Made by a program: the position numbers and the translations under genes. Below the pieces are notes generated by a model. The model had not been told where the DNA came from, made no database searches, and was given only the letters and a program-made list of their open reading frames with translations. DNA of 64,000 bases from Microtetraspora sp. NBRC 16547 (lineage in GTDB: Bacteria > Actinomycetota > Actinomycetes > Streptosporangiales > Streptosporangiaceae), in the NCBI RefSeq assembly GCF_030268965.1, contig NZ_BSSE01000015.1, forward strand, positions 62,001-126,000, given 5' to 3'. Below, piece after piece: positions 2,375 through 13,638 of the stretch. How positions within the stretch are numbered: the first letter of the stretch is position 1; each line of letters begins with the position of its first letter.

Positions 2375-3919
2375 GTGACCGAACGGTTGGACGGCCCGCA
2401 GGCTCCCGGCGGCGACGAGCTCGCCGCCGGGGCCTCCCCCGGACCGGCAGAGACTGAACCCGACGTCGCGCGGCCCCCGGCCACCGACACCAACACCGAC
2501 ACCTCCACCGACACCGACGCCGACACCGCGACGGACCCCACCGACACCGACACGGGCACCGCCATCGCGACGGACCCTCGCCCTGGCGCCACCGGCACCG
2601 CGACGGCTCCCCGACCCGCCACCGGCCACACGGCCGCGACGCGGCTCAGCCCGTCGCCCAAGATCGCGGTGTTCTTCCTGCTCCCGGCGCTCCTGCTGCT
2701 GGCCGCCTGGGTGATCTACCCCATCATCTACTCGATCTTCCGGAGCCTGTTCGACGCGGCGGGCGACCGCTTCGTGGGCCTTAAGAACTACGCCGCGATC
2801 ATCAGCGACCCAAGCATGCTCGCCACGCTGTGGCACAACGCCATCTGGGTCGCGATGGCCCCGCTGATCGTGACCGTGCTCGGTCTGATCTTCGCGGTGA
2901 TGACCGAACGCATCCGCTGGGCGACCGCGTTCAAGCTCATCCTGTTCATGCCGATGGCGGTCTCGCTGCTCGCCGCCGGCGTCATCTTCCGGCTCGTCTA
3001 CGAGCAGGACCCGGACAAGGGTGTCGCCAACGCCGTGATCACCACGGTGCACGACACGTTCAGCAGCAGCCAGGGCTATCCCGGGGCCCGTCCCCGCGAG
3101 AACGACCAGGCCCCTGTGGTGCTGAAGAACGGCGACGTCGTCACCCGGCAGCCGGTCCAGCCCGGCCAGCAGGTCCTGATCCCGCTCGTCGGCCTCAAGC
3201 CGGACGCCGTCGAGAAGGCCACGCCGGCCAAGGCCGCCGGCGCGGGCGGCCTCAGCGGCACCGTCTGGCTCGATGTCGTACGCGGAGGCGGCGGCACGGT
3301 CAACCAGATCGACGGCACAGAGAAGGGTCTCGCCGGGATCACGGTCGAGGCGGTGGCGGGCGGCCAGGTCAAGGCCACCACCGAGACCGCCGCCGACGGC
3401 ACCTTCTACTTCTCCGGCCTGTCCGCGGGCTCCTACGACGTACGGCTTCCGCAGTCGAACTTCGAGGCGGCGTTCAACGGCATCACCTGGCTCGGCCCGA
3501 CCCTGATCACTCTGGCGATCATCGGCGCGTACATCTGGGTCTGGGCGGGCTTCGCGATGGTGCTGATCGCGGCCGGGCTCTCGGCGATCCCGCGCGACGC
3601 GCTGGAGGCCGCGCGCATCGACGGGGCCACCGAGTGGCAGGTGTTCCGGCGGATCACCGTGCCGCTGCTCTCCCCGGTCCTGCTGGTGGTCTTCGTCACG
3701 ATGGTCATCAACGTGCTGAAGGTCTTCGACCTGGTGTTCATCATCGCGCCGGGTTCGGTGCAACCGCAGGCGAACGTGATCGCGCTGGAGATGTGGCGCG
3801 TGTCGTTCGGCGGCGGCGGCAACCAGGGCATGGGTAGCGCCCTGGCCATCTTCCTGCTGGTCCTGGTGCTGCCGTTCATGATCTTCAACATCCGGCGGTT
3901 CAGGAGGGACGAGCGATGA
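2375..3919 (+). CDS. Sugar ABC permease (MalF-type) with inserted extracellular domain
   Basis: Inner-membrane permease of the MalF/UgpA type, 514 residues against about 300 for the family. Three parts are visible. Residues 1-90 are a low-complexity Thr/Asp/Ala-rich tail with repeated TDT units. Residues 97-208 hold the first membrane helices. Residues of about 209-368 form an insertion with a Gly-rich beta-sandwich look (GTVWLDV near 295, then ETAADGTFYFSGLSAGSYDV), similar to SdrD B-like or carboxypeptidase-regulatory domains. The helices then resume, with the ATPase-contact EAA motif at EAARIDGATEW near 411-421. The insertion sits where the external loop should be, so it may help dock binding proteins (inference). 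The GTG start follows AGGGGAGAA. The stop overlaps the next gene by 4 bases (ATGA). Confidence 0.9.
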   Translation: MTERLDGPQAPGGDELAAGASPGPAETEPDVARPPATDTNTDTSTDTDADTATDPTDTDTGTAIATDPRPGATGTATAPRPATGHTAATRLSPSPKIAVFFLLPALLLLAAWVIYPIIYSIFRSLFDAAGDRFVGLKNYAAIISDPSMLATLWHNAIWVAMAPLIVTVLGLIFAVMTERIRWATAFKLILFMPMAVSLLAAGVIFRLVYEQDPDKGVANAVITTVHDTFSSSQGYPGARPRENDQAPVVLKNGDVVTRQPVQPGQQVLIPLVGLKPDAVEKATPAKAAGAGGLSGTVWLDVVRGGGGTVNQIDGTEKGLAGITVEAVAGGQVKATTETAADGTFYFSGLSAGSYDVRLPQSNFEAAFNGITWLGPTLITLAIIGAYIWVWAGFAMVLIAAGLSAIPRDALEAARIDGATEWQVFRRITVPLLSPVLLVVFVTMVINVLKVFDLVFIIAPGSVQPQANVIALEMWRVSFGGGGNQGMGSALAIFLLVLVLPFMIFNIRRFRRDER

Positions 3920-6299: not shown

Positions 6300-6353
6300 T
6301 TCCGTATGCCCCCGACGGCGCGTCGCCCGAGCCGCTCCCAGCGGAGGTTCGAG

Positions 6354-6434
6354 CCATCCGCCGTGAGAGGCGGTCACGCGCCATCCGCCGTGAGAGGCGG
6401 TCACGCGCCATCCGCCGAGAGGGGCGGTCACGCC
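6354..6434. repeat. Three tandem 27-bp units, each a hairpin
   Basis: Units at 6354-6380, 6381-6407 and 6408-6434. The first two are identical and the third differs at a few bases. Each contains CCGCC, a short loop and GGCGG, giving three consecutive small hairpins. The third unit includes the stop codon of the minus-strand gene ending at 6428, so the array looks like a duplicated terminator for that gene. It is not a CRISPR: there are no spacers. Confidence 0.85.
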
Positions 6435-7360
6435 TCCAGCAGGTTTGCTCGACGGCCGGTCAGGGCGTCCCGCTGCCGAGCCAGTTCGTCGCATCGGGCG
6501 GCGAGGTGGTTGAGCACGCCGTGGACCCAGCGCGCCACCTCCTGGACCTCCTGGCCGGTACGCATGATCTTCTGGTGCTTGTACATGTCGAAGATGACAT
6601 TGTCGAAGAACATGTCGGCGAACCAGCGGGTGTCCACCTTGGGAAGCCGAGGGCTCGCGGCGACACCGACGTCGGCCAGCTCACGCGAGAACGCGTCGAG
6701 CGCCCGCTGCGCCTGCCACGCCGCCTGGTCGGCGTCTCTGAGTTGGCCGTGCTCGATGAAGTCGGCGATCCCGCCGCCACCGAACACGTCCCAGGTGGAC
6801 GCCCCGCGCGCGCCGTCGAGGAATCGCAGGACCTGTCCGACGGCACGGCCCGCCGCCATCCCGGCCTGCCGGGCCTCTCCGTGCTCGCGCAGGTCGGCCT
6901 CGACGTTCGCGAGTCCCGCGGCGATGTCGGCGAGCTCCCGTCCTCGCGGATCGTCGGAGTCGACCAGCAGCCGCTCCTTGCGGGCCAGCAGCGCGTTGAG
7001 CTCGTCGGCGGCGGTCCCCACCTCGGCCAGGCTCGTGTCGGTCGAGCGCAGGTCCTCCGTCAGCCACTCCAGCCGGGCGCGCTGGCCGTGGACGCGTTGC
7101 CGCACGGCCTCCGCCTCCGCGCGCTCACGGGCGAGCCGCTCCTCCTTGGTGCCGAAGAGGGAGGCGAAGAATCCGCCCTGCTCCAGCTTGACGACGTCGT
7201 GATCCTCCTTGGCCAGCTGCCGCTCCAGCTCGGCGAGAAGCCCTCTGACCTCGTCGATCTGCCCGGTGAGAGTGACGCGCTGCCGGGACAGCCGCTCGCG
7301 ACGACGCGTCCGCTCCCTGGCATCACGGATCTCTTCGTCAAGAGCATCAAAAGAGGTCAT
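6428..7360 (-). CDS. Coiled-coil protein of unknown function
   Basis: Protein of 310 residues, not recognised. The first 150 residues are strongly charged, Arg/Glu/Leu-rich helix that should form a coiled coil, broken by a short hydrophobic GGFFASLFGTKEERL segment near residue 62. The C-terminal half has a conserved-looking core (WDVFGGGGIADFIEHGQL near 186, and FADMFFDNVIFDMYKHQKI near 246) and ends in another helix. There is no signal peptide and no full membrane helix. It is the last minus-strand gene after the peptide cluster, 113 bases from its neighbour, and may or may not belong to that cluster. Confidence 0.75.
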   Translation of the reverse strand: MTSFDALDEEIRDARERTRRRERLSRQRVTLTGQIDEVRGLLAELERQLAKEDHDVVKLEQGGFFASLFGTKEERLARERAEAEAVRQRVHGQRARLEWLTEDLRSTDTSLAEVGTAADELNALLARKERLLVDSDDPRGRELADIAAGLANVEADLREHGEARQAGMAAGRAVGQVLRFLDGARGASTWDVFGGGGIADFIEHGQLRDADQAAWQAQRALDAFSRELADVGVAASPRLPKVDTRWFADMFFDNVIFDMYKHQKIMRTGQEVQEVARWVHGVLNHLAARCDELARQRDALTGRRANLLEA

Positions 7361-7473
7361 ACTTCACAAGACGAACGATCGACGCACGGCGTTCCCCTGG
7401 CCGTTCACGACCCGGCCGCTTCAGATCGCCCCTTCAGACCGCCCCTTCAGGCCGCACCTCCGGAACACGGCTC

Positions 7474-8355
7474 TCAGGCGGCGAGTAATCCCGGGGTGCT
7501 GCAGAGCCAGTCGTTCACAGTGCCGGTGAAGCCGGACGGCGGGCCGACGCTGAGACAAGTGGCGTCGGCCGTGCGGCTGCCGAGCCGGACGCGGAACGGT
7601 TCGCGATCGAGATGCGGGGCGCCGGAGACGACCACGGGCTCGGCGTCGCCGAGCCACAGGTGCTCGCCGATCGTGCGGCACCTGGCATCCGGACTTCCGG
7701 CCGTCCACGCGAGATGCCCGGCGAGCAGGTGTCGCGCGACGGTGCGGAGCACGGAGACGGTGCACAGACTGTGCGCGCAGGCGGCCCCCTCCAACATGAC
7801 CTCCGGCAGGCCGAACCTCCGGAGGCCGCGCGTCGAGATCGTGAGACAGGTGCAGGCATCGGTCGCCGCGGGGTCCCACGGCGGGCAGGAGCTGTCGACG
7901 CCGACCTCGGTGGTCCAGCCGAGCCAGTCATCCCCGAGCCGGAACTCGTGCGGCTCCCCCTCGCACCCCGTGCGGTGCGGAACGATCACGCCGGTCACGA
8001 GATCGACGATGACGCCGCCATAAGCGTCGGCGACACCGCGAGCCACCGCCCTCGCGGCCTGCGCGACCTCGGGCTGCTCGGCGACCGGCGCGGTGCTGGT
8101 GACCACGACGTGATGGCGGGCCCTGCGCACGGCGTCGCGTCCCTCATCGCCGACGCTCATCCGCGGCCACGGCGACTGCGCGGCCTGGAACACCTGCAGG
8201 TCCAGCCGCGACGTGCCGAGCGCCTGGGCGGCGGCCCTCCTGTGTGACCCGCTCATCCGCCACGGAACAACCGAGTCCAGCTCGACCGGCCGGCGGTCGG
8301 TCGCGACGACGAACACCGAAGTGGTCTCGGCCGGAACGGGATAGGTGATCTTCAT
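7474..8355 (-). CDS. Unknown cytoplasmic protein, Cys-rich centre
   Basis: Protein of 293 residues, not recognised. The N-terminal half looks like an alpha/beta fold (VFVVATDRRP near the start, AYGGVIVDLVTGVIVP near 111). The centre has seven Cys in about 75 residues (GCEGE, SCPPWDP, ACTCL, ACAHSLC), a possible metal site. There is no signal peptide. The ATG is preceded by GGGAGA at good spacing. It lies 110 bases downstream of the M50-type gene in the same orientation, so it could be an accessory protein of the peptide cluster. Function is not claimed. Confidence 0.75.
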   Translation of the reverse strand: MKITYPVPAETTSVFVVATDRRPVELDSVVPWRMSGSHRRAAAQALGTSRLDLQVFQAAQSPWPRMSVGDEGRDAVRRARHHVVVTSTAPVAEQPEVAQAARAVARGVADAYGGVIVDLVTGVIVPHRTGCEGEPHEFRLGDDWLGWTTEVGVDSSCPPWDPAATDACTCLTISTRGLRRFGLPEVMLEGAACAHSLCTVSVLRTVARHLLAGHLAWTAGSPDARCRTIGEHLWLGDAEPVVVSGAPHLDREPFRVRLGSRTADATCLSVGPPSGFTGTVNDWLCSTPGLLAA

Positions 8356-8429
8356 GGGTTCTCCCTGTCGGTCCTGGAGAGCCCAGCTTGCGGTCGCGTC
8401 TGGACGCTTCGCTCAACCGAACGGTCCTC

Positions 8430-8453
8430 TGTGGAAAACCCCGGTTATCCACA
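8430..8453. other. Inverted pair of DnaA-box-like sequences
   Basis: TGTGGAAAA (8430-8438) faces TTATCCACA (8445-8453) across 6 bases. The right box is identical to the classical DnaA box and the left is one base off its complement. The pair lies in the 110-base gap between two minus-strand genes. A lone pair is too little to call an origin; it may be a DnaA regulatory or titration site, or simply a weak terminator hairpin. Confidence 0.4.
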
Positions 8454-8465
8454 GGAGAGCGTCCT

Positions 8466-9695
8466 TCACCTGTCCGGCCGGGGAGCCACCAGGACCGCGG
8501 CGGCCGACGCGAACCACCGCCTGATCTTCGGCCCGTGCCTGCGCCACCACGTCCGGGCCCAGAGTCCCTGGACGCCGACCAGCACCGCGACCACCGTCGC
8601 GGCGTCGAGGAGCGCGAGCCCGTCACCGCCGTTCAGCAGGGTGCCGAGGGCGGGCATCGCGATGGCGGCGAGAGCGGGGAGCACGATCATCACGGCCACG
8701 GTCAGGCACACCGCGGTGCCCAGCACGAGCAGCAGCGTGTACAGGCGCACAGCTGAACGCTCGCGGCGGGAGAAGCCCGCGAGCGGGTTCGCTCCTCCCC
8801 TGCCGAACACGCGGCCGATGAGAAACCGCCCGTACGCCACGCCGTCGCCGTACAGGTTCCTGCATCCGGCGAGGTCCTGGGCGACGAAGTAGAGATCGGT
8901 CCGCATGAAGATCAGGAGTTGGAAGCTCATCGCGTCGATCTGGGTCAGCACGACGATCGAGAGGGCGGTGTAGACGCCCTCTTCCGGCGTGACGACGGTC
9001 AGCGCGACGAGTCCGGCCGCCATGATGGCCGCGTCCAGCGCCATGCCCGCGAGGTAGACGGTCATCCGGACGCGTTTCTCCTCGCCCCAGACTCCGGAGA
9101 CGTCGGTCTGCACCACGAGGAACTGCAGGCGCGATCCCAGGGCTATCCTTCCGGGCACGCCGGCGGCGCGGGCCGTACACAGGTGGGCGAGCTCGTGCAG
9201 CATGACGAGCGCCCACGTGATGGCGAGCTGGGTGGTCAGGGAAACGGTGCCGAACTCGCTCCAGGCCATGATGCTCGGACTGGGGATGATCTCCGGTCGT
9301 ACGGCGACGGCGATCAGCCCGCAGAGAATGAGCGCGACCAGTCCCGCGTGAACCGGCGGGCGCAGTGTCCATCGCACGTGGCGCGGTCTCAGCCAGGGAA
9401 GCGATGGCCTGTGCGGCCGGGTGTCGTCGACCGGCCGGCCGTCGATTTCCGCGACGAATCCCACGTCCTTCAGCGCCGTCACGAAGTCGGCCACATCGAC
9501 GGCCGTCCCGGTTTCGGCGCTGACGCGTGCCGCGACGGCGTCGATCCGCCCGCCGTCGGACAGCAGCTCGATCACTCTCTTGCCGATGTCCGGGAAGGAG
9601 ACGAACTCTCCGGTCTCGACCCGTCCCACGATCCAGTCCGTGCCGTCGCGGCGCATCCGGAGCCGGTGCATCCGCACTCTCGACGTTCCGGTCAC
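8466..9695 (-). CDS. PqqD-like domain fused to M50-type membrane metalloprotease
   Basis: Membrane protein of 409 residues. Residues of about 10-90 look like a PqqD-type winged helix (GEFVSFPDIGKRVIELLSDG), the fold that binds leader peptides in peptide natural-product pathways. The rest has several membrane helices with the zinc-protease motif HELAH at residues 167-171, and a downstream MRTDLYFVAQDLAGCRNL segment whose Asp is the likely third metal ligand in this group. This protein type commonly sits in RiPP gene clusters and could cut or export the modified peptide (inference). The GTG start at 9695 overlaps the upstream ThiF-like stop (GTGA), so translation is coupled. A longer open frame reaching 10169 is a shadow of the ThiF-like gene and was excluded. 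Confidence 0.85.
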   Translation of the reverse strand: MTGTSRVRMHRLRMRRDGTDWIVGRVETGEFVSFPDIGKRVIELLSDGGRIDAVAARVSAETGTAVDVADFVTALKDVGFVAEIDGRPVDDTRPHRPSLPWLRPRHVRWTLRPPVHAGLVALILCGLIAVAVRPEIIPSPSIMAWSEFGTVSLTTQLAITWALVMLHELAHLCTARAAGVPGRIALGSRLQFLVVQTDVSGVWGEEKRVRMTVYLAGMALDAAIMAAGLVALTVVTPEEGVYTALSIVVLTQIDAMSFQLLIFMRTDLYFVAQDLAGCRNLYGDGVAYGRFLIGRVFGRGGANPLAGFSRRERSAVRLYTLLLVLGTAVCLTVAVMIVLPALAAIAMPALGTLLNGGDGLALLDAATVVAVLVGVQGLWARTWWRRHGPKIRRWFASAAAVLVAPRPDR

Positions 9696-10801
9696 GGCCG
9701 GCACGTGGCGCACCCCGCTTCCCCCTTCGGGAACTCGGCGAAGATCGACTGGTGCGGGGCGATCAGGTTGGTGCCCTGGATGAAGCCGGCCGTGACCGGG
9801 GGGACTCCGGTGATGACGCGGAGAACCCCATGCGCGACCAGGTTTCCGCAAATCCCCGCCGACGTGGCGATCGCCCCCGGCCCGCCGAGGTTGACGGGAC
9901 GGCCCGCGCCCCCGGGAGGACCGACGCCGGGCGGGGTCCGCTTGCGGTCCTCGATCCGCTGCATGCACTCGTAGCAGGCCCCGCGGCCCGGCACGAAGAC
10001 GCCCGTCGTGACGAGCGGGCCGCTGTAGCCGCCGCCCACCCACGGAATCCCGGCGGCGAAACAGGCCCGATTGGCCCACACCCGGATGCCGTCGGCTCCT
10101 TTGGGCTCGTCGGCGCACAAAGCCACCACATCGAATCCGGGCAGCATATTCGCCAGATCTCGCTCGCACCGAATACGTGAATACGCGCCCGAAATCTCGA
10201 TATCGGAGTTCAGCTTTTTCAACCTGTCGACGGCGACCTTCACTTTTTCGCGGCCTATATCGCCCTCGGTGAAGATGAGTTGTCGGTTCAGATTGGAAAG
10301 TTCGACGCGGTCATCGTCGACCAGGTGCAGAACTCCCACTCCGGACGCCGCCAGGGCGAGTGCGGCGCAGGCTCCCGCGCCGCCGACGCCGATCATCAGG
10401 ACGCGCGATCTACGCAACCTGAGCTGGGCGTCCCAGCCGTGCTCCCGCGGAGTGATGTCCGCCCAGCGGAAGAAATCGTGGCCGCGACTGTAGCGGTCGC
10501 GCTCGCGGGCGCTGAGTTCGGGCGCGTCCGTCGCTCCCGCGTCCTCGACATGGCCGGTCGCCACGAGCTGGGCGACTATAGCGATCGCGTCGTTCCGGGT
10601 CAGTTCCGGAAACCCCGATCGCATCAGCGCGGCGATGTCGGCGCAGGTCCGCGTGCCGTTCATCGCCTCAAGCGCCGTCCACACCCAGCCATGCGGGTCT
10701 TGGATCTCATGGGCGAGCCCGTAGATGTCGCCGCCGATGCGTATCCGGCCGTCGTCCAGCCGGTAGGCCGCGTGCTCGGACTTTATTCTCGGCAACCGCA
10801 A
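9692..10801 (-). CDS. E1/ThiF-family adenylating enzyme, MccB/PaaA-like
   Basis: Protein of 369 residues. Residues 1-120 form an N-terminal domain resembling the peptide clamp of MccB-type enzymes. Residues 130-369 are an E1-like adenylation domain: nucleotide loop GVGGAG at 138-143, SNLNRQ at 169-174 with the conserved Arg, GREKVK at 183-188, and Asp231 in ALCADEP. Two Cys pairs (CYEC at 276-279, CATC at 364-367) make the structural zinc site. In microcin C and pantocin A pathways such enzymes activate residues of a ribosomal peptide with ATP, and the nearby 44-residue peptide is the obvious substrate. The TTG start is supported by GGGAGG five bases upstream. The frame is open further upstream but offers no ATG or GTG. 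MoeB/ThiF cofactor roles are less likely given the N-terminal domain and context. Confidence 0.88.
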   Translation of the reverse strand: MRLPRIKSEHAAYRLDDGRIRIGGDIYGLAHEIQDPHGWVWTALEAMNGTRTCADIAALMRSGFPELTRNDAIAIVAQLVATGHVEDAGATDAPELSARERDRYSRGHDFFRWADITPREHGWDAQLRLRRSRVLMIGVGGAGACAALALAASGVGVLHLVDDDRVELSNLNRQLIFTEGDIGREKVKVAVDRLKKLNSDIEISGAYSRIRCERDLANMLPGFDVVALCADEPKGADGIRVWANRACFAAGIPWVGGGYSGPLVTTGVFVPGRGACYECMQRIEDRKRTPPGVGPPGGAGRPVNLGGPGAIATSAGICGNLVAHGVLRVITGVPPVTAGFIQGTNLIAPHQSIFAEFPKGEAGCATCRP

Positions 10802-10992
10802 CGCGGCCTCCCGGTGAAGGCGTGGACTCCGCTCTCGACTCCCGCTGCCGGCTCCGATGCCGGTTCGGATGCCGGTCCCGGCATGGGTTCGAATGCCGGC
10901 TCCGACGTCGCCGGACGTCCGGAGCGGAAACTCGCGGAGCCGCGATCGGGCGCCGAAAAGGCCCCCGGTCGTTGCTCCGCGGGAGTTCCGAG
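10802..10992 (-). other. Intergenic segment between precursor and ThiF-like gene
   Basis: Holds no convincing gene. It contains a run of imperfect GCCGG(T/C)TC(C/G)GATGCCGG-like units around 10845-10900, which could fold and attenuate transcription from the abundant precursor message into the enzyme gene. The ribosome site of the ThiF-like gene is at 10807-10812. Confidence 0.4.
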
Positions 10993-11127
10993 TCAGTTTC
11001 CGGTGGAGTTGCTCAGCCGCTCGGTGGTCTCGAGCCGGTCCAGCCTGCGAATCTCGATCTTGACCGTCCCGTCGGCGCCGTTCTTTTCCGCGGGCTTGTT
11101 CTCGTCGAGGTCACTGAGATCGCTCAT
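10993..11127 (-). CDS. Putative RiPP precursor peptide, 44 residues
   Basis: Very short gene, MSDLSDLDENKPAEKN at its start, with a charged middle (KIEIRRLDRLETTERL, residues 23-38) and the tail SNSTGN. It begins with ATG preceded by AAGAGGAAACTC, an excellent ribosome site, and has its own promoter (11188-11223). It lies just upstream of the MccB/PaaA-like gene on the same strand. Acidic leader, basic amphipathic segment and short polar tail fit a leader/core layout. The C-terminal Asn is notable because MccB acts on the C-terminal Asn of microcin C's precursor. I found no named family for it, so precursor status is inferred from size, expression signals and context. Confidence 0.75.
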   Translation of the reverse strand: MSDLSDLDENKPAEKNGADGTVKIEIRRLDRLETTERLSNSTGN

Positions 11128-11187
11128 GAGTTTCCTCTTCTCGTCGATGCGCTCGGTTGACATTGCCGGTAAATGGACGGCCGTCGC

Positions 11188-11223
11188 GAAAGTCAGAGTA
11201 GATCATTTCCAACGAGAGTGAAA
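11188..11223 (-). promoter_or_regulatory. Promoter of the precursor peptide gene
   Basis: On the minus strand, TTTCAC (11218-11223) and TACTCT (11195-11200) are separated by exactly 17 bases, giving a start site near 11188 and a leader of about 60 bases before the peptide ATG at 11127. It lies inside the 129-base gap after the MFS gene, so the peptide can be made independently of the transporter. Confidence 0.6.
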
Positions 11224-11256
11224 GGTCTGACTTTCTCCTGATTTCCGGCCCTTCTG

Positions 11257-12546
11257 TCACGGCGCTTTGAGTGACGTGGGCGTCGCCTCGGAGGCCTGAT
11301 CCCGGGCGACCGGCGTGATACCGCTGTGGAAACGCGTCATTCCACGGAAAACGAGGGCCGCGATCGGCACGGCGAATCCGGCGATCGTCGAGATCACCAG
11401 CAGCGACGACCGGCCGATCGCCGTACTGACCGGCCCGGTGAGGGCGAGCCCGAGGGGCATCATGACCGAGGAGGCCAGCCAGTCCACGGACGTGACCCGG
11501 GCCAGACGTTCCGGCGGGATCTCTCGCTGGAGGTTCACCACCCACTGGACGGCGAAGATCTCCAGCCCGAGACCGGCGACGATGTAGCAGGCGTACAGGA
11601 ATCCCGAGGAGAACGGCCAGGTGAGCGCCAGTGGCACGGCCCCGTACAGCGCGAGCCCGATGATGGCGGTCAGACCAGGCCGGCCGGGCTTCCACCTCAT
11701 GCTGACCACTCCGCCCACCAGGCCGCCGACCGACAGCAGGGCCAGGGCGGTTCCGTACACGGCGTCGCCGCCGAAGGTGCCGCGGGAGACGAGAGGCAGC
11801 AGGACCTGCGCCGGCGCCACCGTGAACATCAGCTGGAGCGCGACGGCGATGATCACACCCAGCACCCACGGCCGCCGCCAGACTTCGGACAGACCGTCCG
11901 CGATCTCCTGTACCGCCGACGTCCGCTGCGCCGGCGCGGCTGCCGGTTCGCGCAGGGGCAGAAGCAGGACGAGGCCGAGCACGTAGGCCGTCAGCACGGC
12001 GAGGAAGCCGATCCGGGGCGACCAGACCGTCGCCACGTACGCGCCGAGGCCCGGTCCGATGACGGCGCCGATCCGCCAGGAGACCGCGCCCAGGGCGACA
12101 CCCGCCGATCGCTGGCCGGGCGTGAGGACCGACGACAGACAAGCCTGGTACGCGGGCCGGTGAAACGCCTCCGCCGCCCCGACGAGGAAGACCAGGAACG
12201 CGAGAAACCACGGGGAAGAGCCGCCACGCAACCCCGTGGCGACGACGCAGCACTGGAAGGCCAAGGAGACGATCATGACGGTCCGGCGGGGCAACCGGTC
12301 CGCCCACAGTCCGCCGAGCAGCGCGAGCAAGATCAACGCGATCCATCGTCCGGTGAAGATCGCACCCACGGTCGAGGCGGTCCCGCCCGCGTTGAGAGCC
12401 GCGATCGTCACCGCTACGGGGAAGATCTGGTCGGCCGCCACCGACATCGTGAAGCTGAGCCACAGCAGGCGGAACTCGCGATTTCGCACCAGGGAGCCGT
12501 CAGCGGGACGGGCCGAACGAATGAGCTTGCTCAAACGAGTGCGCAT
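11257..12546 (-). CDS. MFS transporter, probable exporter
   Basis: Protein of 429 residues with about 12 hydrophobic helices. The early NREFRLLWLSFTMS and the loop GGLWADRLPRRTVM (residues near 78-91) match the MFS signature between helices 2 and 3, in the style of drug and peptide exporters. It is the first gene of the minus-strand peptide cluster, 129 bases upstream of the precursor. In the microcin C system the exporter MccC is also an MFS protein, so export of the mature peptide or self-immunity is the likely job (inference). Plain drug efflux is the alternative. Confidence 0.85.
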   Translation of the reverse strand: MRTRLSKLIRSARPADGSLVRNREFRLLWLSFTMSVAADQIFPVAVTIAALNAGGTASTVGAIFTGRWIALILLALLGGLWADRLPRRTVMIVSLAFQCCVVATGLRGGSSPWFLAFLVFLVGAAEAFHRPAYQACLSSVLTPGQRSAGVALGAVSWRIGAVIGPGLGAYVATVWSPRIGFLAVLTAYVLGLVLLLPLREPAAAPAQRTSAVQEIADGLSEVWRRPWVLGVIIAVALQLMFTVAPAQVLLPLVSRGTFGGDAVYGTALALLSVGGLVGGVVSMRWKPGRPGLTAIIGLALYGAVPLALTWPFSSGFLYACYIVAGLGLEIFAVQWVVNLQREIPPERLARVTSVDWLASSVMMPLGLALTGPVSTAIGRSSLLVISTIAGFAVPIAALVFRGMTRFHSGITPVARDQASEATPTSLKAP

Positions 12547-12807: not shown

Positions 12808-13539
12808 TCAGGTGCGGGTGAGCGGGCTTCTCCGGCGCACGATCGCGGAGGCGAGCAGATACTGACTCACGATGTAGGTGACCATGACGAGGAATCCCCG
12901 GTACGGAAAATCGAGGTCGGCGATTTCCAACGCGATAAGGGTGTCCGACAGGAGGAACAGCCCACCGCCCACCGCGGCCCGCAGGCCGTACCACGACGAC
13001 GTGATCGCGGTGGTGGTGAGCAGGAGGGAGTACGCGGCGACCGGGATCTGGAGCGCACCGAGTCCGGGCCAGAGGAACGCGACCAAGGCCGCCCACACCA
13101 CCGCGTAGGCCGCCACCGACATCCACCACCGGACTGGTCGGCGCCCAGACGTTCCGCCGACGCCCACCGAATCGGATGCGGCGGAGGTCCGGAACCCGGG
13201 CCGCTCCCGTACGAAGAACGTGATGTAGCAGACATGCGCGACGGCGAAGAACGCCATGCCGGGGATGAACATCCCGTCGATCTCCAGCGCGATGTCCCCC
13301 GCCGCCGAAGCAAGGAGGGCCGCCACGATGATCTTCGGGCCGCGGCGGGCGAGCACCCAGAGCGCGAGAAGGGGCATCAGCAGGGCCTTGCTCACCGGGT
13401 CGAGCACGCCCGGTCCGGTGAGCAGCGCGACCAGGTGGACCACCGAGCACGCCCAGAAGGCGATCAACAACGGCCCGGCGAGCCTCGCCGGAGCGCCGCT
13501 TACGCGACCTGACAGAACAGCATTCGGTGACTCGTCCAT
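12808..13539 (-). CDS. YhhN/TMEM86-family membrane protein (lysoplasmalogenase-like)
   Basis: Membrane protein of 243 residues with about eight hydrophobic segments. Typical YhhN features are visible: KALLMPLLALWVLARRG near residue 50 and ASAAGDIALEIDGMFIPGM near 77 with its conserved Asp. Some family members cleave lysoplasmalogen; the role in actinobacteria is unclear. The ATG at 13539 is chosen over GTG 13560 because TAGTAT followed by 7 bases precedes it, a leaderless promoter layout. Residues of about 110-130 form a polar loop. It is a single gene that faces the trehalose operon's tail. Confidence 0.8.
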   Translation of the reverse strand: MDESPNAVLSGRVSGAPARLAGPLLIAFWACSVVHLVALLTGPGVLDPVSKALLMPLLALWVLARRGPKIIVAALLASAAGDIALEIDGMFIPGMAFFAVAHVCYITFFVRERPGFRTSAASDSVGVGGTSGRRPVRWWMSVAAYAVVWAALVAFLWPGLGALQIPVAAYSLLLTTTAITSSWYGLRAAVGGGLFLLSDTLIALEIADLDFPYRGFLVMVTYIVSQYLLASAIVRRRSPLTRT

Positions 13540-13638
13540 GCCCGGGATACTAGTGAGCACCTCTCACGTCCGACGCCCGGCCCTCGCGGCGATCCGTCGT
13601 CTCCCGCGGCGATGACGGGCTGGGTGCGGGCCGGGCCA

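Follow-up and report, generated by a model that had tools for sequence, protein, structure and literature searches.

A four-gene cluster of Microtetraspora with a ThiF-like enzyme and a short precursor that may be closed to a peptide macrolactone

Among the ThiF-like enzymes that act on ribosomally synthesized and post-translationally modified peptides (RiPPs), IndF uses N1 of a Trp as the ring-closing nucleophile (PMC12150305), EnfB lets a backbone amide close the ring on the ATP-activated C-terminus, and GrcB, a ThiF-like protein with a RiPP recognition element (RRE), links the side chain of an internal Glu to a Cys at the C-terminus as a thiolactone (both PMC12250964). These statements follow the accessible portions of the two papers, and that on IndF also mentions further clusters of its network without naming them. 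Here we describe a cluster in Microtetraspora sp. NBRC 16547, found in a stretch of 64,000 nucleotides (contig NZ_BSSE01000015.1, positions 62,001 to 126,000; called the window below, and meaning the whole stretch). At 8466-12546 it holds four genes, for a major facilitator superfamily (MFS) exporter, a 44-residue precursor peptide, an E1/ThiF-like enzyme with an RRE-like N-terminal domain, and an RRE-fused site-2 protease. The cluster belongs to the ThiF-like RiPPs and is not a new kind. We consider it somewhat probable that it produces a peptide macrolactone closed by the E1 enzyme.

The cluster resembles the IndF and EnfB systems of streptococci and enterococci in the fusion of an RRE to a ThiF domain, in a short precursor made of leader plus core and, as predicted here, in ATP activation of the C-terminus followed by ring closure; the EnfB leader motif (V/I)RKA also resembles the I-R-R/K-L of the window's family. 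It differs in the nucleophile, which is Trp N1 or a backbone amide in those systems, whereas the side chain of a Ser or Cys at position −6 from the C-terminus is predicted here, and in the protease, which is of the M16 type in the ind locus and of the site-2 type in the window. With GrcB, of the GRC-type RiPPs, the cluster has in common an RRE-bearing ThiF-like enzyme and the (thio)lactone closure predicted here; the acid of GrcB, however, is an internal Glu and its partner a C-terminal Cys, whereas we predict a C-terminal acid and an internal Ser or Cys. The C-terminal Cys that is the hallmark of the GRC type occurred in 0 of the 37 distinct cores compared below, and there was no radical S-adenosylmethionine gene among the four cluster genes. 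The predicted product itself resembles the staphylococcal autoinducing peptides (AIPs; AgrD/AgrB), short tailed rings in which a Ser or Cys is joined to the C-terminal carboxylate. The enterococcal lactone gelatinase biosynthesis-activating pheromone has the same geometry of Ser/Cys side chain to C-terminal carboxylate. AIP maturation uses AgrB, a membrane cysteine protease according to the part of PMC10885120 that is accessible, whereas the cluster is predicted to rely on an ATP-using E1 for closure; no AgrB-type membrane cysteine protease was present among the four cluster genes.

The features on which the argument depends, all on the minus strand, are the following.

11257..12546, minus strand: MFS exporter, 429 amino acids (Pfam MFS_1, 7.7e-34)
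11195..11225, minus strand: block CTTTC...ATCTA resembling a promoter of the precursor gene, conserved in 8 aligned orthologous upstream regions
11131..11139, minus strand: ribosome-binding site of the precursor, AAGAGGAAA, with AAGAGG kept in 8 of 8 aligned orthologues
10993..11127, minus strand: precursor peptide, 44 amino acids, MSDLSDLDENKPAEKNGADGTVKIEIRRLDRLETTERLSNSTGN, with a ribosome site, purifying selection and a profile that matches E1-positive genomes only
11041..11067, minus strand: leader strand TVKIEIRRL, residues 21-29, presumed to be bound by the RRE
11023..11031, minus strand: ETT, residues 33-35, presumed border of leader and core and presumed cleavage site
10996..11013, minus strand: hexapeptide SNSTGN, residues 39-44, presumed to form the ring through a bond between the side chain of Ser39 and the C-terminal carboxylate
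9692..10801, minus strand: adenylating enzyme of the E1/ThiF-like type (Pfam ThiF, 2.1e-49), 369 amino acids, TTG start, whose N-terminal domain is RRE-like
8466..9695, minus strand: RRE-fused site-2 (M50-type) protease; its GTG start and the stop of the E1 gene overlap in GTGA

An earlier reading made from the letters alone (the sequence-only reading) had already named the MFS transporter, the 44-residue peptide gene with its ribosome site, the E1 enzyme with an extra N-terminal domain, the PqqD-like/M50-type membrane protease and the GTGA overlap, and each of these held up in our analysis.

The same reading had raised two questions, whether E1 homologues occur together with the peptide gene and whether the peptide frame is conserved in relatives. 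E1 matches at 1e-40 were found in 88 of 297 family genomes, and we compared 117 E1 loci, consisting of the window locus and 116 further places fetched from family genomes (L-numbers denote loci other than the window's, and G-numbers genomes). When the leader pattern was run over the same 697 kb around the 117 E1 genes, it gave 107 matches on the E1 strand, one of them (in L032) visibly a chance frame, versus a single match on the other one. Precursors of this type were present in 105 of the 117 loci, 96 by the pattern and 9 by eye, the latter all with a degenerate ETT and coming from the 18 of the 21 pattern-negative loci that were inspected. A precursor profile matched 39 of 150 family genomes (taken, from their handles, to be the same G000-G149 as in the E1 search), and all 39 were among the 41 that are E1-positive, while none of the 109 E1-negative family genomes gave a match; one of the two E1-positive genomes that the profile missed, G131, has a precursor found by the pattern (L141). 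From this co-occurrence across loci and genomes we concluded that the precursor is real and partnered with E1.

The precursor frame was conserved as well. With seven orthologues, the ratio of non-synonymous to synonymous differences (pN/pS) was 0.22 for codons 21-44 versus 1.32 for codons 1-20, which indicates purifying selection on the strand and core and none on the N-terminal 20 codons. Among 14 diverse precursors I24, R27 and L29 of the strand were invariant and I26 almost so; E33 and T34 of ETT were invariant and T35 almost so, and degenerate forms (GPT, EPT, ESP, SGA) were seen in other precursors. The start of the 44-codon frame, directly after AAGAGG, is ATG or GTG across orthologues. 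A 56-residue reading of the peptide (start 11163) was dropped in favour of the 44-residue start, because the ribosome site of the latter is conserved in all aligned orthologues. The peptide gene had also been credited with its own promoter; conservation of the CTTTC...(A)TCTA block in 8 orthologues agrees with this, although a scan for the sigma-70 consensus found no site there, and the second half of the block is altered in L036. The precursors matched no NCBIfam model, and Pfam gave one chance-level match on a relative's peptide (SWIRM-assoc_1, 0.029). As the precursors are also absent from the annotation tables of three annotated plasmid records, annotation seems to miss this family.

The extra N-terminal domain of the E1 enzyme matched PaaA-like_N at 2.9e-4, which is under the Pfam cut-off, and the best PDB sequence match of the enzyme was PaaA, followed by MccB. 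Its predicted structure (predicted local distance difference test score, pLDDT, 91.6) aligned over the full length with MccB, the best fold match (Z 31.2, 334 residues, root mean square deviation 4.7), and with PaaA at Z 27.3; on this model the ThiF domain is fused to an N-terminal RRE. The ATP-site residues R173, K186 and D231, the same as in MccB, were invariant in 16 sequences and again in 42 sequences, and their spacing (13, 45) is that of Arg167, Lys180 and Asp225 in the accessible account of EnfB (PMC12250964). The enzyme also has two Zn-type CxxC pairs, C276/C279 and C364/C367.

To compare cores, we took those loci whose E1 identity was at least 49%; their 77 precursors gave 37 distinct cores after exclusion of L060 (RMSWESG), the chance frame in L032, and L113 (E1 below the cut), whose core AVSPSQGASN has Ser at −6. 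The residue at −6 was Ser in 33 of the 37 and Cys in 2; position −4 held Ser in 19/37 and position −3 Ser or Thr in 20/37, and the last residue was N (23), S (8), A (3), Q (2) or T (1). The stretch from ETT to −6 varied in both length and sequence. In 20000 within-core shuffles the best of six positions reached at most 24 (mean 14.4) versus the 35 observed, a test that overstates independence because the 37 cores are related. Ser is changed to Cys at −6 in L052 and L107, which lie on separate branches of the E1 tree. Over the 82 rows of the window's clade in that tree, 67 had Ser at −6, 2 had Cys at −6, 4 did not fit (L047, L077, L060 and L120) and 9 had no precursor that we could see. Three precursors outside the count also fit with Ser at −6, L273 (AVSNSTGN), L194 (SASNPSGN) and L274 (VCSNANGN), the last of which has lost the −4 Ser to Ala and kept that at −6. 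Acidic residues of the hexapeptides were confined to two exceptions (GLNQSEA and TLCMSEA).

This pattern suggests that the cores are suited to adenylation of the C-terminal carboxylate by E1 and closure of a six-residue macrolactone. We take the C-terminal carboxylate as the acid because it is the sole carboxylate common to the cores, and the −6 side chain as the nucleophile because it is the sole shared one and stands at a constant distance from the C-terminus; a macrolactone from Ser39 to the C-terminus is proposed because the known ThiF-like RiPP enzymes activate a carboxylate and ring closure follows. We infer the following course. The RRE of the E1 enzyme would bind the strand TVKIEIRRL of the 44-residue precursor, and the enzyme, with ATP, would adenylate the C-terminal carboxylate of Asn44. 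The hydroxyl of Ser39 would then attack, AMP would leave, and the six-residue ring Ser-Asn-Ser-Thr-Gly-Asn would close with a mass change of −18.011 Da, calculated to bring the precursor from a monoisotopic 4887.427 to 4869.416. The window core supplies one exact mass for a test. The RRE-bearing site-2 protease would next remove the leader by a cut that probably falls after ETT, so that the ring keeps a short tail such as Glu-Arg-Leu and the ring core would have a calculated [M+H]+ of 959.454, and the MFS protein would export the ring peptide, whose role would most likely be that of a secreted signal or weapon.

The protease had weak Pfam assignments, to PqqD (1.3e-3) and Peptidase_M50 (0.061), both under the cut-off. 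In its predicted structure (pLDDT 91.2) the N-terminal RRE aligned with TbiB1 (Z 9.5 over 82 residues) and with the lasso B1 protein 6jx3 (Z 9.3 over 79), and the site-2 part with SpoIVFB (Z 10.4) and an RseP orthologue (Z 10.1); Foldseek E-values were weak, 0.13 at best. These matches of predicted structures back the low-scoring Pfam assignments of both the protease and the E1 N-terminal domain. The HExxH residues H175, E176 and H179, together with D275 (numbered from 9719), were invariant in 30 sequences. Proteases of the M50 type cut the precursors of epipeptides and pearlins, and EpeP (epipeptide) and TglG/TmoG (pearlin) are, like the protein encoded in the window, membrane M50 proteases of a RiPP locus, as stated in the accessible part of PMC10885120; the window protease differs from them in having its own N-terminal RRE. 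We think it likely that leader removal in the window is carried out by this RRE-bearing site-2 protease; the arrangement is not universal in the family.

The match of E1 to MccB (Z 31) brings in a microcin-C-type pathway, in which the enzyme would turn a C-terminal Asn into a peptidyl nucleotide with a P-N bond, and the MFS protein, which is indeed present, would export it like MccC. Asn ends the window core and 23 of the 37 distinct cores; the other 14, however, end in S, A, Q or T, and the change reaches the window's own MFS-bearing branch, where the core of L036 (E1 79%) ends in A (...SNSTGA) and that of L038 (E1 76%) in S (...SNPSGS). MccB chemistry requires Asn at the C-terminus and is disfavoured because L036 and L038 have another residue there. 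The precursor, unlike the E. coli heptapeptide, also has a leader with a conserved strand, and there were no MccE/MccF immunity genes among the four cluster genes, no directed search having been made nearby. We regard such a pathway as improbable. The sequence-only reading had left the product as a small modified peptide, possibly a peptidyl nucleotide or cyclised; its RiPP locus and cyclised product are supported by the core pattern, with the ring as a prediction, and the nucleotide is not, for the reason given. A pantocin-type reaction, with activation of the conserved Glu of ETT in the middle of the precursor, seemed to us very improbable. It has on its side the best PDB sequence match, the likeness of the E1 N-terminal domain to that of PaaA, and the conservation of the Glu in most precursors; however, no Glu-Glu pair was found in the 37 cores, and the ETT Glu is replaced in the active-looking loci L099 (AGP), L110 (VGP) and L057 (KSGA), where Ser at −6 stays. 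That the locus is decayed or an orphan, its peptide not being a substrate, deserves scarcely any credence, since the window and its orthologues have intact copies of all four genes and selection on the precursor strand and core is purifying, even though some E1 loci have no precursor or protease.

A closer competitor, unlikely in our view, keeps the activated C-terminus and changes the nucleophile to a backbone amide (giving an imide, as with EnfB), a small amine (giving a C-terminal amide), or Ser41 or Thr42. EnfB yields an imide or amide from an activated C-terminus, according to the accessible text of PMC12250964, and Ser41 and Thr42 are both present in the window core. The −4 Ser (19/37) and −3 Ser/Thr (20/37) are, however, far less constant than the −6 Ser/Cys (35/37), L274 has Ala at −4, and an imide or amide would leave the fixed Ser/Cys unexplained. 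The macrolactone closed by Ser39 has its own difficulties besides the relatedness of the cores mentioned above. The conserved Ser/Cys at −6 could serve recognition instead of bonding. Neither GLNQSEA (L047, L077) nor TLCMSEA (L120, with Cys at −5) has Ser or Cys at −6; RMSWESG (L060) lacks Ser there and would make the count 35/38 if included; and ALNSNPSG of Micromonospora (L179), outside the count, does not fit. No precursor was found near E1 in 12 of the 117 loci, 7 of which belong to one clade. The protease was matched within the fetched stretch in 69 of the 117 loci and was absent from many, and no such protease was found at 1e-15 in 6 of 21 genomes, a chosen set in which several were picked because their locus has no protease gene; leader removal must therefore sometimes need something else. 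Finally, a distant, well-supported E1 clade combines the same leader with cores that contain Arg and end in Gly (22 of 23 rows), often with no Ser or Cys, so the proposed mechanism leaves part of the E1 family unexplained. All of these points weigh against the macrolactone or limit its reach.

The limits of the cluster were set by comparison with relatives. In 11 of the 117 E1 loci (that of the window and L032-L041) the precursor and E1 genes were immediately preceded by an MFS orthologue. The cluster occupied the same position in L032-L035, and three of these four loci come from Microtetraspora, the genus of the window. Eight related regions had no cluster, and the MFS, E1 and protease genes were seen in 0 of these 8; the gene for a 293-residue protein (7474-8355) was present in 8/8, together with that for a 310-residue coiled-coil protein (6428-7360) in 6/8, and ung was also seen in 7/8. 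In G059 the cluster sits on another contig than that genome's related backbone region. The 293- and 310-residue proteins occurred in 51 and 24 of 150 family genomes, respectively. Because both genes are present in relatives' regions without the cluster, we assigned them to the chromosomal backbone and ruled them out as cluster members, although the sequence-only reading had counted both in the locus as unknown proteins, one of them Cys-rich. That reading had also called the combination with an M50-type protease and the Cys-rich protein unfamiliar; the M50 protease has the epipeptide and pearlin precedent given above from PMC10885120, and the Cys-rich protein is outside the locus. A YhhN-family gene beside the cluster (12808-13560, minus strand) was present in L032-L035, and was seen neither in the eight cluster-free regions nor in L036; it may have arrived together with the cluster. 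Just after the 310-residue gene, at 6350-6425, there is a short head-to-tail repeat, GGCGGATGGCGCGTGACCGCCTCTCAC. Elsewhere in the window (2375-3919, plus strand) an ABC sugar-permease-like open reading frame has a long insert, GLAGITVEAVAGG...DGTFYFSGLSAGSYDVRLP, which resembles an SdrD/Cna-B-type repeat domain.

Named carriers were Microtetraspora, Planotetraspora, Microbispora, Nonomuraea, Micromonospora, Glycomyces, Amycolatopsis and Saccharothrix, as well as plasmids of Streptomyces, Nocardia and Actinacidiphila. On the named genomes a wider leader pattern gave 21 opposite-strand matches, and matches there were therefore judged by eye; in most Streptomyces and Actinacidiphila relatives (E1 45-47%) none with such a leader was seen. 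When the phylum was sampled evenly, the E1 profile matched 40 of 396 genomes at 1e-40, at full length only in the window's genome and G467; the other 38 matches did not begin until about position 91 or beyond, which is what ordinary ThiF/MoeB proteins would give. With full-length E1 in 1 of the 395 other genomes of that sample, the enzyme is common within the family and occurs only here and there outside it. One group of loci (L064, L112, L114-L117 and L121) forms a clade of E1 paralogues with no precursor nearby, and several of these genomes hold other E1 copies. In L209, from Bacillus sp. SA1-12, a small open reading frame, MKIKAKKVEKIKPTVAAGCCCCCGCC, lies 171 bases before an E1 gene that pairs with an M50 gene.

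Precursors of other core types accompany related E1 genes. The Arg/Gly precursors were found in most of L068-L071 and L126-L145, about 160-240 bases before E1, with the leader KLEKIETT and with cores that have Arg at +3 and always end in Gly (GLREGG, KIREGSG, INRGGSSG, QLRLVG), reminiscent of the C-termini of ubiquitin and ThiS; their sequences suggest a different product of a related E1. Other short precursors (L065, L066, L118, L120, L122-L124, L148, L151 and L169) have a Cys four to eight residues before their C-terminal end (SFCATEM, GFCGDNA, TLCMSEA, NSPCANAS, KICTITGD), where thiolactone rings would need it, and some of these E1 loci hold two or three precursors; as the Cys cores outside the window's clade were grouped by eye for their Cys, the count of 18 of 18 holding Cys is so by construction. 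In Pseudonocardiaceae five short precursors (L190, L192, L193, L195 and L196) have F-S or F-C at −7 or −6, in line with the proposed ring.

A gene of the DUF6879 family (PF21806) was found within −4 to +6 kb of E1 in 47 of the 117 E1 loci, at +1.3 to +4.0 kb in L042-L063 and others. In L270-L273 it adjoins a precursor with no E1 in the 15-kb stretch; L274 has a precursor without an adjoining DUF6879 gene, and L275 adjoins another E1. In the genome of the window the family has a single member, encoded on a different contig. A literature search on DUF6879 gave no paper. Searches on the leader strings, on ThiF macrolactones or thiolactones, on ThiF-like enzymes in actinomycetes and on RiPPs with ThiF, PqqD and M50 listed no paper on the present family, with subscription literature mostly uncovered.

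If the proposal is true, a Ser macrolactone would be a bond type for which we saw no report among ThiF-like RiPP enzymes, either in the literature searches or in the accessible parts of PMC12250964 and PMC12150305. DUF6879, a family without known function, gains a first testable context as the neighbour of a peptide. A wider and rather doubtful possibility is that actinomycetes own an ATP-driven counterpart of the AIPs, in which E1 enzymes would close Ser/Cys (thio)lactones from precursors with a shared leader, with rings of about five to eight residues depending on the clade, and in which these peptides would act as cell-cell signals and DUF6879 would sense or handle the ring.

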